A DNA stretch of 44,974 nt, taken from an uncultured Bacteroidia bacterium (GTDB lineage Bacteria; Bacteroidota; Bacteroidia; NS11-12g; UBA9320). The notes under the pieces are model-generated. The model was not told the DNA's origin. It saw only the letters and a list, made by a program, of their open reading frames with translations, and made no database searches. Position 1 is the stretch's first letter. Each line of letters starts with the position of its first letter. The translations under genes and the position numbers were made by a program. Positions 17,937 through 29,930 of this stretch are shown here, piece by piece. The stretch covers positions 1 through 44,974 of the forward strand of contig CAJQIC010000008.1 in assembly GCA_905478335.1 (NCBI GenBank), read 5' to 3'.

Positions 17937-18302
17937 ATGAAAAAGATTACACAGGTATTATTCATCGCTTTTATTGCAATTGCTTTTGCAGCATGTAATG
18001 GTGGAGAAAAGAAAGAAGAGTGCAAAGAAGATTGCAAAAAAGAGGAATGCGCAGAAAAACATGGCGAGAAATGCGCTGATGACTGTGAAAAAGAATGTTG
18101 TTCGGACAAGAAAGGTGGCGAAGAAGCTCACGTTTGTGGTGATGACTGTAAAGACGGTTGCACACATAAAACTGAAGAAGCGCATGTTTGTTCTGAAGAG
18201 TGTGGTGATGAATGCGCTCACAAAACAGAAGATGCAGGTACAGAAGAAGGTGATGAAGACGAAGCTCCAGAATCTACCGAAGACGGCGCTGAGCACAGCT
18301 AA
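17937..18302 (+). CDS. Cys-rich acidic lipoprotein with repeated CxxxCxxxC units
   Basis: A 121-residue lipoprotein with lipobox AFAAC (Cys20). The mature part is made of four clusters of cysteines spaced C-x3-C-x3/4-C: 29/33/38, 46/50/54-55, 67/71/75 and 85/89/93. The last two are an 18-residue tandem duplication, HVCGDDCKDGCTHKTEEA (65-82) and HVCSEECGDECAHKTEDA (83-100), each adding two histidines. The tail (101-121) is strongly acidic. Thirteen mature cysteines plus histidines suggest metal binding or redox buffering at the cell surface or periplasm, but no named family is recognised. It has its own probable promoter and a strong terminator directly behind, so it is monocistronic. A lysine-rich frame overlapping it is a shadow. 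Confidence 0.88.
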   Translation: MKKITQVLFIAFIAIAFAACNGGEKKEECKEDCKKEECAEKHGEKCADDCEKECCSDKKGGEEAHVCGDDCKDGCTHKTEEAHVCSEECGDECAHKTEDAGTEEGDEDEAPESTEDGAEHS

Positions 18303-22789: not shown

Positions 22790-23143
22790 ATGCGAAAATT
22801 CGATCTACTAAACTTCTTCTATGGGTTAGGTGCTGCTATTATACTCATTGCAGCCTTGTTTAAATTTCTCGGACTTGAAGGAGCAGACGCCCTATTTATT
22901 GTTGGCCTTGTTGGTGAAGCAATAATTTTCTTGATTTCAGGTGCCCAACCAATTTTTAAGCATCAACCTTATAAGTGGGAGCGCTTATTTCCACAATTAC
23001 AAAAGGAAGATGACGACATAGAAACGGTTGAAGTAACTATTGATGGCGCTGAAGCTACCCAAGAGCAACAAATTCAACAAATCATCCAATCCATAATTGG
23101 ATTAAACAATTCTGTTGAAAATCTAAATAATGCAACCCAATGA
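22790..23143 (+). CDS. gldL: GldL-like motor subunit, cut by an in-frame TGA
   Basis: The 117 residues before the stop contain the two-helix GldL membrane domain: FFYGLGAAIILIAALFKFLG (TM1), then GADALFIVGLVGEAIIFLISGAQP (TM2), with Lys25 and Glu43 as likely equivalents of the paired charged residues used for proton transfer in GldL. After Pro54 a cytoplasmic acidic, Gln-rich helix follows. GldL and GldM form a proton-driven inner-membrane motor for type IX secretion and gliding. GldL is usually above 200 residues. Translation stops at TGA 23141-23143, but the same frame stays open for 49 more codons (23144-23290), encoding a coiled-coil-like tail that ends 5 bp before gldM. This looks like a nonsense mutation or readthrough. 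No gldK precedes it, so it is probably a paralogue rather than the canonical T9SS gldL. Confidence 0.8.
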   Translation: MRKFDLLNFFYGLGAAIILIAALFKFLGLEGADALFIVGLVGEAIIFLISGAQPIFKHQPYKWERLFPQLQKEDDDIETVEVTIDGAEATQEQQIQQIIQSIIGLNNSVENLNNATQ

Positions 23144-23290
23144 CTAACAACTTACGTGGATAAGCTAGAAACCAATTATGAAATGGTGAATAGCTCGACG
23201 TTAGACTATCATAAAGAAATAAACAGCCTTAAAATTAAGATTGCTTCGGCAAACGATAAATTAAAGGAATTTGAAAATTATAAATTTTAA
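23144..23290 (+). pseudogene. Remainder of gldL-like frame after the in-frame TGA
   Basis: This is in the same frame as the preceding GldL-like gene and encodes 48 residues, LTTYVDKLETNYEMVNSS through KIASANDKLKEFENYKF, before TAA at 23288-23290. Its helical heptad-like character matches the region just before the TGA, and its stop lies 5 bp before the gldM ATG. No start codon with family support lies inside. It is therefore most simply the C-terminal part of the same gene; readthrough would give 166 residues. Confidence 0.7.
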
Positions 23291-23295
23291 TTGCC

Positions 23296-24987
23296 ATGTT
23301 TGAATCTAGTGCTCAAAGACTGAGACAGAAGGCAATTAACCTTCTATATCTCATATTTCTGGCGATGATTTTTACATACATCTCGTCAGATTTCGTGGAC
23401 GCAGTGCAAAAAAGTGATCAGACCACTTCTGTACTCGGACGTCAAGTAGAAATACAAACCAATAGGTATAACCTTGTGGTGCTTAATCACCTCAAAAATG
23501 ATAGTGCAACATATGCCAGGACCAAACATAGAATCGCTTCTATTGATGACAAGACAAATACCCAGCTCGACTTCATTGATAGTCTAAAGTTTGCTTTGAT
23601 TGCAAAAGAAGGCTTTAACCCCTTTGGATATTTCAAAGGAGGGAAGCGCGAGGTTTTCTCTAACGAATTAATGATCGAAGGGCAGCAAGCTAAACGTTTG
23701 TTTGACAGACTCAAAGAATATAAACTAGACATTAGCCAATTTGTTGAAGCCTCACAAGTGGATCAACTGGACACGATAATGCCATTGACTAGTTTTCAGT
23801 ATAAATCAGACGGACAACTTATTGAATCTGAAAAATTCTACTTCTCGAAACACCCACTTACCGTATCGGTCATGAACCTGACTATGTTTAGAAGTCAGAT
23901 TGAACTGATACGTAGCTTCATCTTCAATACAACTGTAAGTGAGGCGATTAGCGAATCGAGCTATCCAATACCGACGCCCTTATCTAGGGTGTTAACAGCT
24001 TCTGATGCGTTAGGTTCTAAAGATTACATTCCTATTTTCTTAGATCAAGTGAATTGGGACTCTATTGTACTTAATGAGAAATTGTTAAAAAACAAACAGA
24101 GAGAAAACCAGATAAAAGAAGACAAACAAAACGAAGAACAGAAACATGCTGTAACCATTGAGTCGTTAAGTGACTCTGTTTATGCGGTGGGTAAACCAGT
24201 GCGATTCAATTTTGGATTTGACACAGAAACAAACAAACCGGTGAACATTTCCTTAACAGATCCAAATGGTGAAGAGAAAAGCTACGCACTTAATGCACCA
24301 GGTACCTTCCTATTCGTTCCTGAAATAAAAGGATATTACACGCTTCGGTTTAACAATACTGTTGTTTCTGGAAGAAAAAACTTAAAGGTGTTAGATCTTA
24401 AGCCAATTCTAGAATCTGGTCAAATGGGAACCTTATATGTAGGCTTAAACAACCAGCTCAATTTAAGAACTGCGGAGTTTGAAGATACAGAAGGTTTGCA
24501 AGCCAGAATCTCTAAAGGTCAAATACTTAAAAAAGGCAAGAGCTTCTATGCTCGTGTGAACGAAGAAGGACAAGTTCGAGTGGAGGTTTTTGCTAAAATG
24601 CCTTACGGATTCGTCAGAATCGCAGACAAACAATACGTTGTTAGAAAACTAAATCCACCTATTGCTACGCTCAATGGCATAAGTAAATCAACCATTGCCA
24701 AAGTTAGTGAGTTGGCCAAATCAAAAGCATTGAGCATCAAGTCTGATGAATTTTTGGTGGAAGAACAATATTACATTTCAAGCTTTGAAATGACCATCAT
24801 TTACAACGACCACACCGCCATTCTTAGACCTATACCAAATATAGGTAACTCACTGAATAGCAGTATCTTATATGCAATAAGTAAAGCGACAGCAGGTGAC
24901 ATTATTATGTTCACCAAAATTAAGGCGAAATCGTCGTTGGGAACGGATATTGAACTGCAACCGCTTACGTATTCAGTAACTAATTAA
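23296..24987 (+). CDS. gldM: GldM-like motor protein
   Basis: A 563-residue GldM homologue (canonical about 515). The N-terminus has the GldM pattern of basic residues before a single membrane helix, RLRQKAINLLYLIFLAMIF (about 8-26), followed by a periplasmic dimer made of several beta-sandwich domains (D1-D4); a charged, Gln/Lys-rich linker occurs at about 270-290 (NKQRENQIKEDKQNEEQK). The segment YAVGKPVRFNFGFDTETNKPVNISL begins the C-terminal domains. GldM dimers sit in the GldL pentamer and transmit motion to the outer membrane. Here the next genes are not gldN but a beta-helix/beta-barrel pair, so the partner differs from that in classic T9SS. Confidence 0.85.
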   Translation: MFESSAQRLRQKAINLLYLIFLAMIFTYISSDFVDAVQKSDQTTSVLGRQVEIQTNRYNLVVLNHLKNDSATYARTKHRIASIDDKTNTQLDFIDSLKFALIAKEGFNPFGYFKGGKREVFSNELMIEGQQAKRLFDRLKEYKLDISQFVEASQVDQLDTIMPLTSFQYKSDGQLIESEKFYFSKHPLTVSVMNLTMFRSQIELIRSFIFNTTVSEAISESSYPIPTPLSRVLTASDALGSKDYIPIFLDQVNWDSIVLNEKLLKNKQRENQIKEDKQNEEQKHAVTIESLSDSVYAVGKPVRFNFGFDTETNKPVNISLTDPNGEEKSYALNAPGTFLFVPEIKGYYTLRFNNTVVSGRKNLKVLDLKPILESGQMGTLYVGLNNQLNLRTAEFEDTEGLQARISKGQILKKGKSFYARVNEEGQVRVEVFAKMPYGFVRIADKQYVVRKLNPPIATLNGISKSTIAKVSELAKSKALSIKSDEFLVEEQYYISSFEMTIIYNDHTAILRPIPNIGNSLNSSILYAISKATAGDIIMFTKIKAKSSLGTDIELQPLTYSVTN

Positions 24988-24989
24988 TA

Positions 24990-26267
24990 ATGATCACAAT
25001 GAAAAAGATAAAATGTAAAATAGCACATGGCACTTTTTGGGCGATCATTATGATTGTGACCATTGGAAGCGCAAGCGGACAAACAATGAAAAGCTTCCCC
25101 AAAATTGTTGAATCAAACATGACCTTGGACTCCGGAGACTATGTTGTAAAAGGAAATAACATCGTCCGTTCGACAGTGACCCTTTCTTTGCGATCTGGAA
25201 CTGCGTTGTACTTCACTGAAAACGCAGTGATTCAAGTTAAGGGCGGACTAAATATTAAGGGTAAGGCTGGAGACTTTGTTACCGTAACAAGTGTTAACAC
25301 CAACAAACCTGGAATGGGATTCGCCATTCACCAAGAAAGTGATAAAGCCATAGATATTAATTACGCCGACTTTAAGGAACTAAAAAGACCCCTAAAATTT
25401 GAGCGTTACTGGTTGCGACCATCTGTAACCATATCCAATTCCATGTTTCACAAATTAAACCACGGTGTTTATTTTGAAATTCAAGAGATAGACAAGATTC
25501 TAATTCGCAATCCACTAACAGTCAACATTACTGGAAATACGTTCTCAAACAATACCGGAAGTTTGATGATTTCTGACGCTGCATGGGAACAGTTGCACAT
25601 CAACATAACCAACAATGTATTTTCACGTAATGAGTTTATAGGCAGGGAGTTAAACGGCATATTCACCATACCGTTGTTCCTCAACTACAATGAAAAAGAA
25701 GGTCAACTCAAACAGCCATCGATTAAAGATAATAGCATTAGTTACAACTATGTTGGATTAATCGGATACGATACCGTTGAATTTCTACCTGTATACTTAA
25801 CCGCAGTAGGTTCTGCCGACAAATTGGATATTTCGGATAATTACTATGGTGTTAATGCCGATAAATACTTGGAGATTAATTCTGAAATCATTCACTCGTC
25901 ACAGCGAGCTCCTTTTATTGAATATTCAACACTTTACTCCAAACCTTTGGAATCCAATAATGGTCACATCTACAAGGTTGGTGTAAACGGCGTTCAAGTG
26001 GACAATCCAAACTACGATCTTCGCATTGATCAGTTCACCGATGTTGTTGAGCTCATTGGAAATAAGGCTGCGTTACCCTCACCATCATTTGATGTTACTT
26101 ACATCTATTTGGACGATGACACGTTAAGGCGCTACCAACTCAATCATAGGTTGGAATTTCTGAACGGAAACCTTAAAACGAAGTTGTATTTGGAAGATAA
26201 GATTCTTAAGAAATTCGAAAATGGATATTTAGAAGTTACTGGTATTGGTAGATCAAAATGGATTTGA
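24990..26267 (+). CDS. Secreted beta-helix protein, probably N-terminal part of a frameshifted beta-helix/beta-barrel protein
   Basis: The 425-residue product begins with a signal peptide (about 1-31, ending SASGQ). Residues about 60-300 repeat short beta-strand patterns (SNSMFHKLNHGVYFE, ITGNTFSNNTGSLMISD, ITNNVFSRNEF, IKDNSISYNYVGLIG, ISDNYYGVNADKY) typical of right-handed parallel beta-helices. It is 2 bp after gldM and in place of gldN. The final residues (IGRSKWI) are out of character, and the next frame, overlapping by 23 bp, encodes an outer-membrane barrel without a signal peptide. I infer one ancestral protein split by a +1 frame change between 26233 and 26265. The alternative is two separate genes. 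Confidence 0.75.
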   Translation: MITMKKIKCKIAHGTFWAIIMIVTIGSASGQTMKSFPKIVESNMTLDSGDYVVKGNNIVRSTVTLSLRSGTALYFTENAVIQVKGGLNIKGKAGDFVTVTSVNTNKPGMGFAIHQESDKAIDINYADFKELKRPLKFERYWLRPSVTISNSMFHKLNHGVYFEIQEIDKILIRNPLTVNITGNTFSNNTGSLMISDAAWEQLHINITNNVFSRNEFIGRELNGIFTIPLFLNYNEKEGQLKQPSIKDNSISYNYVGLIGYDTVEFLPVYLTAVGSADKLDISDNYYGVNADKYLEINSEIIHSSQRAPFIEYSTLYSKPLESNNGHIYKVGVNGVQVDNPNYDLRIDQFTDVVELIGNKAALPSPSFDVTYIYLDDDTLRRYQLNHRLEFLNGNLKTKLYLEDKILKKFENGYLEVTGIGRSKWI

Positions 26268-27195
26268 ATTCCCGACAGTTAACGTTGGCATAAGACATTT
26301 CTTGAATAAAAACCGAAAATTCCTAGTCAATCAATATAACTACATGTCGATCCCGCGCATGGCTATGACTAATCGAGATTATTATATCACCTTAAATTCT
26401 GCCATCAGTGACAAAGCGGATACCAATGTTAATATTGACGAAGATGACATCCTCATATCTAGGAAGTATTGGGATCTTCAGGTATCAGTAGGTTCTTCAG
26501 TCTACTTTGGCGACCTGGTCACCTCTTCTGTTTCTATTTATGTACCAAACTCAAGACCCTATTTAGGCTTTCGCCTTGGGTACAATTTCAATGAACACTG
26601 GAAAGTTCAACTCCGACAAAACTCCACGATAATAGCCGGAGACGACAGAAGAGAAACAACACTTGGGAAAATTCGAGGAACGAACTACCAGAGAGGTCTC
26701 TCATTGAGAACCACGATTATAGACCTAGGAATAAGCACTGAATTTAAACCTTGGAAACATAAAAAGATTTCAAGCCTGATTCCAAGTTTTAATGCTGGCA
26801 TATCTGGATTTTATTTTAACCCACAAACCGAATATAAAGGTGTTTACTACAACCTGCGTCCTGTTGGTACGGAAGGTCAGACACTTGACGGCTCAAAAGA
26901 AGCGTACAGCAAATTTGCCTTTTCCATCCCTGTTGGAATGAAACTAGAACGCCACATTAACCAGAATGTGCTGATTGGCTTTTCTTGGACCTATCACAAA
27001 TTATTCTTCGACCACCTAGATGACGTTGGCACAGGCAGATACCCTGACGCAGAAGCCCTTAAGGCTGCTAACCCTGATTTAGGTGATATTGCAGTCAAGT
27101 TATCCAACCCCAATGATCAAGCAGGACAAAGATCCTACAGTGCAGACAATGACGGGTTCGGTTATTTTGCTATGACCGCTACTTGGAAACTATAA
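26245..27195 (+). CDS. Outer-membrane beta-barrel domain, probably C-terminal part of the preceding protein
   Basis: The 316-residue frame (first possible start TTG at 26245; open from 26233) encodes alternating amphipathic strands of an outer-membrane beta-barrel: DLQVSVGSSVYFGDLVTSSVSIYV, PYLGFRLGYNFNEHWKVQLRQ, RGLSLRTTIIDLGISTEFKPW, NAGISGFYFNP, VPVGMKLERHINQNVLIGFSWTYHKLFFD, and a C-terminal FGYFAMTATWKL with the aromatic/hydrophobic end for BAM insertion. It resembles DUF6089-type barrels. A free-standing barrel would need a signal peptide, and none is present, which supports fusion with the preceding frame. Confidence 0.75.
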   Translation: MVDQNGFEFPTVNVGIRHFLNKNRKFLVNQYNYMSIPRMAMTNRDYYITLNSAISDKADTNVNIDEDDILISRKYWDLQVSVGSSVYFGDLVTSSVSIYVPNSRPYLGFRLGYNFNEHWKVQLRQNSTIIAGDDRRETTLGKIRGTNYQRGLSLRTTIIDLGISTEFKPWKHKKISSLIPSFNAGISGFYFNPQTEYKGVYYNLRPVGTEGQTLDGSKEAYSKFAFSIPVGMKLERHINQNVLIGFSWTYHKLFFDHLDDVGTGRYPDAEALKAANPDLGDIAVKLSNPNDQAGQRSYSADNDGFGYFAMTATWKL

Positions 27196-27254: not shown

Positions 27255-28052
27255 ATGAAGATCCTCAAAAGATTAGTCACCTTTATTCTTGCACTGCTCG
27301 TTTTATTTGTGGGTCTTGCTGTTGTTGTACCAATAGTCTACAAAAAAGAGATTGTTACCCTCATTAAAGAAGACATTAACAATAATGTAAACGCTCAAGT
27401 ACAATTCAGTGAAGACGTGTCTATCTCATTGCTGAAGTCGTTTCCCAATCTTAACATAAAAATTTCAGATGTACATATTACAGATAGTACTCTTTTTAAA
27501 GCGGACACATTACTAAAATGCGCCACAATTGAAACTACGATAGCCCTAAAGCCCTTACTTGCGGGCCACCAAATTGACATAGCTTACGTAGCGCTCGACA
27601 AACCGTATGTCCAACTCGTCACCAGACAAAATTCCAATAATTGGGACATTCTTAAAACTGAATCGACAGATTCGAATGCGCTGCATTTATCTGCTGACTT
27701 TAATAACATCCAAGTTGATAATGGCCAACTAATTTACAAGGACTCTAGCAATACAACTCATGTCGACCTTAACAACATAACTGGCTCTTTTAAAGGCAAC
27801 TATGCAGATAACATTTTCGACGTAAAGTCAGATTTCATTTGTGAAAATGCATTTGTGTCCTACGACCACATTCCTTATGTCAATCATATACCAATCACGA
27901 CCGAAGCCATTACCTCTATTGACTTAATCAGCGACACATACGCGTTTAAGGAAAATTTATTCACTGTCGGTACGCTCGAAGTCACAGCTAGCGGTGGAAT
28001 ACAATACGACAAAGATTCCGTCGAGATAGATATAGACTATACATCCAACTAG
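27255..28052 (+). CDS. AsmA-like protein, N-terminal part, cut by in-frame TAG
   Basis: The first 265 residues of a large AsmA-family protein: membrane anchor ILKRLVTFILALLVLFVGLAVVVPIVY, then EDINNNVNAQVQFSEDVSISLLKSFPNLNIKISDVHI, the typical AsmA N-terminal motif, and LDKPYVQLVTRQNSNNWDIL. TAG at 28050-28052 ends the frame after DIDYTSN. The frame then continues without another stop to 29930, and the residues on both sides of TAG fit a continuous AsmA region, so a substitution in a sense codon (for example CAG or AAG) is the simplest origin. AsmA-like proteins (relatives of TamB) are periplasmic bridges implicated in lipid traffic or envelope assembly. Confidence 0.8.
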   Translation: MKILKRLVTFILALLVLFVGLAVVVPIVYKKEIVTLIKEDINNNVNAQVQFSEDVSISLLKSFPNLNIKISDVHITDSTLFKADTLLKCATIETTIALKPLLAGHQIDIAYVALDKPYVQLVTRQNSNNWDILKTESTDSNALHLSADFNNIQVDNGQLIYKDSSNTTHVDLNNITGSFKGNYADNIFDVKSDFICENAFVSYDHIPYVNHIPITTEAITSIDLISDTYAFKENLFTVGTLEVTASGGIQYDKDSVEIDIDYTSN

Positions 28053-29930
28053 GGTGAATTTAGCGATCTGCTAGCGCTGACACCGAGTTACTACACGGAT
28101 GACATGAAAGACCTCGTGCTCTCTGGAGAGGCCATCGTTGAAGGAACTGTCAAAGGCATCGTCAGCGAAAATCAACTCCCCGGGTATACATTCAAGATGT
28201 CGTTAAACAACGGCGAACTGAACCACAAAGACCTCGTTACTCCGCTGAAGCGTATACGGTTCGACTTCAATGTAAAAAACGATGATGGCAAAGATCAAAG
28301 CCTCGAAATAGAATTGGACGACCTGTTTTTCAGTCTGAACAACAATCCTTTTACTGCCAACTTTTACGCAAAGGACATCTACGGAGATCCATCAATACAG
28401 GCACAATTAACAGGAGACCTTGAATTGGATGAACTGAATAAAATAATTCCAGCATCATACAATTCCAGTGTTGGTGGCAAAATGATGTGTGATTTGTCTG
28501 TACAAGGAAAACTGTCGAGCATCGAAACGAACCAAGTGCAAAAAGTAAATGCCAAAGGCCATGTTTCTTTGTCTAACGTGCATTATACAAACGACACTTT
28601 TCTAAGCAATTCGATTCAAATACAAAAAGGAGTTTTTGACTTCAATCAAAATGCGATAGACGTATCCACATTTGAAGCAAAATCAGGCAAATCTAATATG
28701 TTGTTAACGGGTCAAATCAATAACTGGTTGGGTTACCTATTTGGCAATCAAGCTTTGTCAGGCAGCATAACTGCGTCATCATCGATGTTTGATGTACATG
28801 ACTTCATTATAAATGATCATACACCTTCGGATGAGATTGACAGTTTCATCCATCTACCAGAAAACTTAGCTATCGACATAGTGTATGACATTGACGAATT
28901 ACAATACGATAATCATAGTTTCTACCAGCTTAGAGGAGAAGCCGTTATCGGCAACAAAGCGCTTGTAGTTAAAGAACTTAGCTCTAATCTTTTTGATGGG
29001 CAAATAGTATTTAAAGGGTTGTTAAACACGGTTGACCCTCTAGCCCCATTAGCTGACTTAGATATAACTGTACAAAACCTCAGCATACAAAAAGCCTTTA
29101 CCAGTTTCGAAACCTTAAGAAAACTTGCTCCAGTATTCGAACAAATCGATGGACAATTTTCTTCCACAGTTAAACTCAAAACAGAACTATTGAAAGACCT
29201 CAGTCCTAATCTTTCAGACATCACGTGCCAAGGTATCCTTGACTTGTACGACTGTGATGTAGAAAACCTAAAGGTTTTATCGAGCATTGGCTCAAAACTA
29301 GAACTTGATGCGTTTAGTGACCCAATCAACATTAAAGATCTCCTGCTCAGTTTTAGCATTGTTGATGGTAAAATAGAGCTAAACCCATTCTCGTTACCGA
29401 TTGGTGAATCAACCCTACAATTGGCAGGCTATTCCAAACTAGACCAAGACATCCGCTTTGATGGCCTTTTAACGGTGCCTAAAAAGCTTTACGCTGAGAA
29501 TAAAGTTGGTCTTAACAACTACATTCCGACAAGTACGTTGTCAACTATTGACAGTTTTGAGTGGTCTGATTTGGAATTTGACATAGATATAGGAGGCACC
29601 TATTACAAACCTTTGGTTGAAATAGATTTTAAATCGACCAAAAATCGTGCAAAGGAAAATATTAAGACCCAAGTTAAATCAAAAATTGATTCACAAAAAG
29701 AAATGCTAGAAAAGCAGGCGAAAGAAGAAATAGAGGCTGCCAAGAAACGCGCGGAAGAGGCAAAAAGATTGGCAGAAGAAAAGGCAAGAGCGGCTTTAGA
29801 AGAACAAAAGAAACGTATCGCCGAACAACTTCGGAAAGAAAAGGAAGCAGCAAATAAAAAGTTGGAAGAGGAGCTCAAAAAAAAGAGAGAAGAACTCTTG
29901 AAAAACAAATTTCCGCTCAAGACTAAATAA
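28053..29930 (+). pseudogene. AsmA-like protein, C-terminal part after the in-frame TAG
   Basis: This continues the frame of the preceding AsmA-like gene directly after TAG: GEFSDLLALTPSYYTDDM, then DLVLSGEAIVEGTVKG. If translation restarts, the first ATG is at 28104 and gives 608 residues, but that product would lack the membrane anchor and signal. The body is repetitive beta-strand AsmA/TamB-like sequence, and residues from about 29640 onward form a long Lys/Glu/Ala-rich coiled coil (KEEIEAAKKRAEEAKRLAEE) of about 90 residues ending in KNKFPLKTK. With the N-terminal part it would be 891 residues. Confidence 0.75.

Follow-up and report, generated by a model that had tools for sequence, protein, structure and literature searches.

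A conserved operon of a GldL/GldM-type motor and a predicted beta-helix/PorG-type barrel protein, separate from the gldKLMN locus, in Bacteroidia

The window considered here is the whole 44,974-nt stretch of contig CAJQIC010000008.1 (assembly GCA_905478335.1) of an uncultured Bacteroidia bacterium, in which three adjoining genes on the + strand, gldL2, gldM2 and bhb, were analysed together with their neighbours. The first one, gldL2 (22790..23290, +), encodes a motor subunit with two transmembrane (TM) helices, carrying Lys25 and Glu43, and a coiled-coil C-terminal tail. Its full frame has 166 codons and ends at 23290; a TGA at 23141-23143 interrupts it, so that the readable ORF (22790-23143, 117 aa) is a truncation, and the homologues are intact at 166 aa (the copy of the sister genome being 96% identical). 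The 117-aa ORF matched the Pfam family GldL_N at 1.5e-18, and GldL2 scored 67.2 bits with PF22827 (GldL_N; cut-off 24) and 70.3 bits with TIGR03513, narrowly above the cut-off of 68.3. Glu43, in TM2, is kept in all 17 aligned GldL sequences and sits at the position of the TM2 glutamate of GldL, which is E49 in F. johnsoniae and for which strict conservation and a critical role have been reported (PMC8986121). Lys25, in TM1, is kept in 16 of the 17, with L050 as the exception. A previous sequence-only reading of this DNA had described a two-helix GldL-like protein with these two residues, and both the Pfam and TIGRFAM matches and the residue positions confirm it. The same reading had put the GldM gene 5 bp after the GldL frame. 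This is true only of the frame read through the TGA, since that stop interrupts gldL2, and not of the 117-aa ORF; the stop had passed unnoticed.

The second gene, gldM2 (23296..24987, +), encodes a protein of 563 aa with one TM helix, carrying Arg10, followed by the periplasmic domains D1-D4. It matched the Pfam families GldM_1st and GldM_4th, plus GldM_3rd slightly below its cut-off, and its match to TIGR03517 (4.4e-31, 108.2 bits) lies under the equivalog cut-off of 180. Judged by these profiles, GldM2 is a homologue of GldM and not a canonical equivalog. The AlphaFold model (mean pLDDT 73.8) had PorM 7cmg and GldM 6ey4 as best Foldseek matches, with 6ey5 also matched, and a profile search of the PDB returned 7cmg at 8.8e-38. 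GldM2 is thus predicted to have the PorM fold, with one TM helix and PorM-like D1-D4.

The third gene, bhb (24990..27195, +), starts 2 bp past gldM2, as the sequence-only reading had it, and is one gene for a signal peptide, a beta-helix, an Ig-like domain and an eight-stranded barrel of PorG type. In eight relatives it is a single ORF of 729-747 codons (about 734 codons at this locus), and in the window it reads as two ORFs, 24990-26267 and 26245-27195. The beta-helix and the barrel previously assigned to successive ORFs are therefore both present, but they belong to one protein split by a frameshift that had been overlooked. In the model built from the sister copy (mean pLDDT 76.8), a signal helix is followed by a beta-helix, an Ig-like sandwich, a linker without order and, at residues 493-733, the eight strands of the barrel. 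Residues ~31-318 (25080..25943, +) are predicted to form a right-handed parallel beta-helix, with VIA-align Z scores of 16-19 against beta-helix proteins; residues ~489-734 (26455..27192, +) would form the outer-membrane barrel of PorG/DUF6089 type, which has no C-terminal tail cysteine, with Z scores of 16-18 against OmpA-type barrels. Between them, residues ~326-418 (25965..26242, +) appear to form a beta-sandwich, which we read as Ig-like from the strand pattern of the model. The structural matches of the barrel are of OmpA/OmpW type; those of the helix include AlgG, NosD and polysaccharide lyases among the nearest folds, and these match lists leave room for further relatives of the single domains. 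In the Pfam search the helix had a weak NosD match. By sequence, no solved structure related to BHB was found at E 0.1. GldN-like sequence inside the beta-helix gene was ruled out, as no match was obtained in the profile searches and GldN sits elsewhere in the genome.

Downstream of bhb lies an AsmA-like gene (27255..29930, +; AsmA match at 9.6e-16), which is a neighbour of the operon in part of family f1, to which the window belongs, and which is one ORF of ~880-905 aa adjoining the operon in L040, L043, L048 and L050; whether it is a member of the system is uncertain. Elsewhere in the window, a short ORF at 17937-18302 resembles a lipoprotein gene and has a very high content of Cys, Glu and Lys.

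We considered 28 loci with a readable gene upstream of bhb, one row each (9 from f1, window included, 7 from f2, 9 from other families and 3 from Bacteroidales). A GldM-type gene was directly before bhb in all 28; the contigs of L089, L090 and L140 stop short of gldL, and another bhb locus outside this set, L139, is on a contig ending before any upstream gene. The linkage, in which gldM is either single or double, spans several families of the class Bacteroidia and rules out a chance neighbourhood. The sequence-only reading had proposed to look for a beta-helix/barrel gene next to GldL/GldM homologues and would have given up its claim if this linkage were not conserved; the 28 loci speak for it on both points. 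Its label of "orphan" motor is misleading, in that the motor genes belong to a stable operon. Synteny of gldL-gldM-bhb is conserved within the family and more diverged over the class: in f1, close relatives share the order murB-rluD-P5C dehydrogenase-gldL2-gldM2-bhb-asmA-rplS-valS and others share part of it, f32, f36 and f40 have gldL, gldM, bhb, three Bacteroidales contigs have gldL, gldM, gldM, bhb, and f2 and f12 have a coiled-coil/TM gene followed by gldL, gldM, gldM, bhb. Strong matches to the beta-helix domain were found in 14 of the 395 sampled genomes of the class. In a phylum-wide sample of 395 genomes the window's own genome was the sole strong BHB match, and the other genomes, sampled to look for occurrence outside the class, gave only partial matches near 50 bits, which look like generic beta-helix matches.

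The small gene before gldL in the twin-GldM operons (L086:12472-13011) encodes a signal peptide, a coiled coil and a C-terminal TM helix, and occupies the same place in L085, L087, L088, L091, L135, L137, L138, L141 and L142; its product could anchor the motor. One twin-GldM operon (L049:1-3558) was observed in the window's own family (g8), whose other members have the single-GldM type, and horizontal transfer is a possible origin of it. A 1347-aa repeat protein resembling T9SS cargo adjoins this operon.

On another contig, C35, the same genome carries the canonical gldL, gldM and gldN with a partial gldK that lies at a contig end, and on C20 it has a canonical PorG, above the cut-off. GldL2/GldM2 are thus a second motor, and the gldKLMN set on C35 rules them out as the sole motor of the genome. 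A separate canonical GldL was also present in all the 19 other genomes with a BHB operon that were checked. As the sequence-only reading had noted, gldK and gldN are absent from the operon: neither was beside it in any locus read. The outcome that it had named as adverse, a genome with no other gldKLMN while close relatives have GldN-like sequence in the beta-helix gene, was not seen, given the set on C35 and the lack of a GldN match.

We also built trees of GldL and GldM, which are quick ones, with few GldL columns and an unreliable inner order. In the GldL tree a branch with SH-aLRT 100 separated 49 canonical rows from the BHB-linked ones, and the GldM tree gave the same separation for 48 canonical rows (SH-aLRT 99). 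This is the phylogenetic check that had been proposed, and together with the canonical set in the same genome it upholds the distinction from gldKLMN. Since canonical and BHB-linked rows come from the same families, the split predates the families or else the operon was passed from one to another, and on these alignments the BHB-linked GldLM is an anciently diverged paralogous motor. The twin GldM proteins of f2 and f12 formed two clades (99 and 98), and those of Bacteroidales clustered together, so the doubling of gldM probably occurred more than once. Like the GldLM of T9SS, the system has a two-helix GldL with Lys and Glu, a GldM with a TM arginine and PorM-like D1-D4, and the order L then M; unlike it, it has bhb as partner, a shorter GldL, a separate lineage and, in some lineages, two gldM genes. 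Neither adjoining gldK/gldN nor a canonical tree grouping, by which a T9SS core locus gldKLMN is recognised, is found here.

Two further pieces resembling the motor were observed: a 136-aa membrane protein on C11 (L003:1270-1680) whose first helix pair is like that of GldL, and a 199-aa protein on C14 (L009:6258-6857) like the TM helix and D1 of GldM alone. Short proteins like the one on C11 also occur in G033, G034 and G035. The partner gene (GldM and GldL, respectively) is absent beside each, and we rejected both as extra operon copies.

The barrel of BHB matched DUF6089 (PF19573) at 6.3e-6 with 26.1 bits, above the cut-off of 23.2 (relatives reach 3e-19), and T9SS_PorG at 1.5e-16 with 60.8 bits, below the cut-off of 130; the best T9SS_PorG score among the BHB relatives was 128.7 bits (L143). 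The LRxxGTEGQ and DYLDDVS motifs, in loops, are common to the BHB barrel and PorG. As far as sequence comparison goes, the two barrels are homologous, and this kinship ties the machine to T9SS in evolutionary terms. The "distinct trans-envelope machine" of the sequence-only reading is therefore separate from the canonical gldKLMN without being free of a T9SS tie. Unlike PorG, the barrel is fused to a large N-terminal beta-helix and an Ig-like domain and is encoded beside its own motor, and it mostly scores under the PorG cut-off. PorG is disulfide-linked to GldK via cysteines of its C-terminal tail, and its passing of force to the translocon is a speculation of the authors of that work (PMC12635249). 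A tail cysteine was present in 5 of the 6 PorG-like barrels of the same genome, whereas the BHB sequences have no conserved cysteine and end at the last strand or in a cysteine-free tail (in L040 alone, a cysteine lies within the last strand). Among the PorG-like barrels of this genome (L094:6293-8183, L095:6023-8027, L096:6329-7240) some are in tandem and most have a short cysteine tail like DKCPxF. L092:603-3143 encodes an 846-aa chain of three PorG-like barrel units.

The reading that we favour, with moderate confidence, is that of a dedicated trans-envelope motor, driven by protons, whose GldM arm would push an outer-membrane-anchored beta-helix where the T9SS motor pushes the GldK/GldN ring. 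Precisely, a presumed GldL2 pentamer and a presumed GldM2 dimer, whose arm would span the periplasm, would use the proton gradient via the same intramembrane Lys, Glu and Arg as the T9SS motor; the 5:2 arrangement and the ion-driven rotation are suggested by the homology with GldLM. If both ends of the barrel face the periplasm, as in OmpA, then the beta-helix is periplasmic, and the tip of the arm would act directly on it. The PorG-type barrel would hold BHB in the outer membrane, and we propose that, with BHB so anchored, the motor strokes become a lateral or rotary force on the barrel and on any partner bound at its conserved loops. We counted in favour of this machine that in L136 the beta-helix is retained next to the motor with the barrel missing, and that L050 lacks both the BHB gene and the motor lysine. 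In L136 the beta-helix gene is followed by one for a PorE-like PD40/OmpA protein. Against the machine we counted that a conserved linkage falls short of proving physical contact, and also L047, an f1 genome like L050, in which the motor genes are present with Lys and Glu intact and there is no BHB match, as well as the lesions in gldL2 and bhb of the window and the PorG kinship of the barrel, which leaves room for a T9SS-accessory role.

That role would be one of an accessory T9SS or gliding motor, in which GldL2M2-BHB supplies extra force to the same SprA translocon or gliding track and BHB serves part of the cargo as a variant of PorG. The shared barrel motifs speak for it, and SprA and GldN were found in 24 of 25 BHB genomes; but SprA is in 331 of 339 complete genomes of the class regardless, so its co-occurrence is uninformative and was dropped as a sign of a T9SS role. 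We consider this reading rather unlikely, given the lack of adjoining GldK/GldN, the missing tail cysteine for a linkage to GldK and the separate lineage of the motor. Less probable still is a machine for envelope maintenance or polymer handling, Tol-Pal- or Ton-like, in which the motor energises an outer-membrane tether or moves lipid or polysaccharide and the beta-helix is a binding surface. It would fit the AsmA-like gene, the peptidoglycan-binding genes of OmpA/PorE-like type that lie downstream in L136 and L143, and the folds closest to the helix (AlgG, NosD and polysaccharide lyases among them); but the AsmA adjacency is lost beyond part of f1, the helix fold is a common one, and the W-x-R motif is the only catalytic-looking residue set conserved across the subtypes. 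Finally, a single chain with a signal peptide, a beta-helix at the N-terminus and a barrel at the C-terminus, as in type V autotransporters, might indicate a surface protein with its helix outside, simply encoded beside a motor. To this we give very little credence: unlike the 12-stranded translocator of that type, the barrel is eight-stranded and of PorG/OmpA kin, the family profile searches gave no autotransporter match in BHB, and the linkage to a dedicated GldM is fixed.

Another explanation concerns this copy and not the system, namely that the operon is decaying and non-functional in this particular genome. We called the lesions against the sister genome (L042, same contig as L106), in which gldL2 and bhb are both intact. 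Codon 118 of gldL2 is TGA here and AGA in the sister, bhb has one extra T near 26243 that splits the frame, and the AsmA-like gene has a TAG at 28050-28052, while murB, rluD, P5C dehydrogenase, gldM2, rplS and valS are full length, all of which would agree with decay. Against this, the sequence past the lesions in gldL2 and bhb is under strong purifying selection: the 48 codons past the TGA of gldL2 have zero amino-acid differences from the sister with saturated synonymous sites, and bhb past the frameshift has a dN of 0.066 with saturated dS. The lesions must then either be very recent or come from assembly errors. We regard decay as possible and somewhat doubtful, and this copy may be recently damaged or misassembled. 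In-frame stops in the AsmA-like gene were observed in the window genome (27255-29930) and in the sister (L106:14428-16923) alike.

GldLM is treated as the motor of T9SS and gliding. In the open-access literature searched (preprints and most subscription papers being outside its scope), a GldLM paralogue with another outer-membrane partner is not described, and a review of the 5:2 motors has two GldL length classes and no BHB-type system (PMC9389320). Like MotAB, ExbBD, TolQR and AglRQS, the system described here would be an ion-driven inner-membrane pentamer-dimer acting across the envelope; unlike these members of other protein families, it has a GldM-type axle, four arm domains and, presumably, an outer-membrane-anchored beta-helix as target. 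Only tentatively, and with less confidence than in the favoured reading above, we suggest a second class of GldLM-powered trans-envelope machine, independent of T9SS, with a single outer-membrane-anchored beta-helix in place of the GldK/GldN ring and a heteromeric arm of two GldM proteins in some lineages.

If this is true, an old conserved GldLM paralogue with its own outer-membrane effector means that the motor was reused, and that an outer-membrane protein may receive force with no GldK/GldN track in between. A system of three or four genes offers a simpler setting in which to ask how force travels from the GldM arm to the outer membrane, and the role of PorG could naturally be compared with it. 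GldL or GldM matches alone should not be counted as copies of T9SS. What these genes suggest is a machine, so far undescribed, by which something at the cell surface is pushed or moved.
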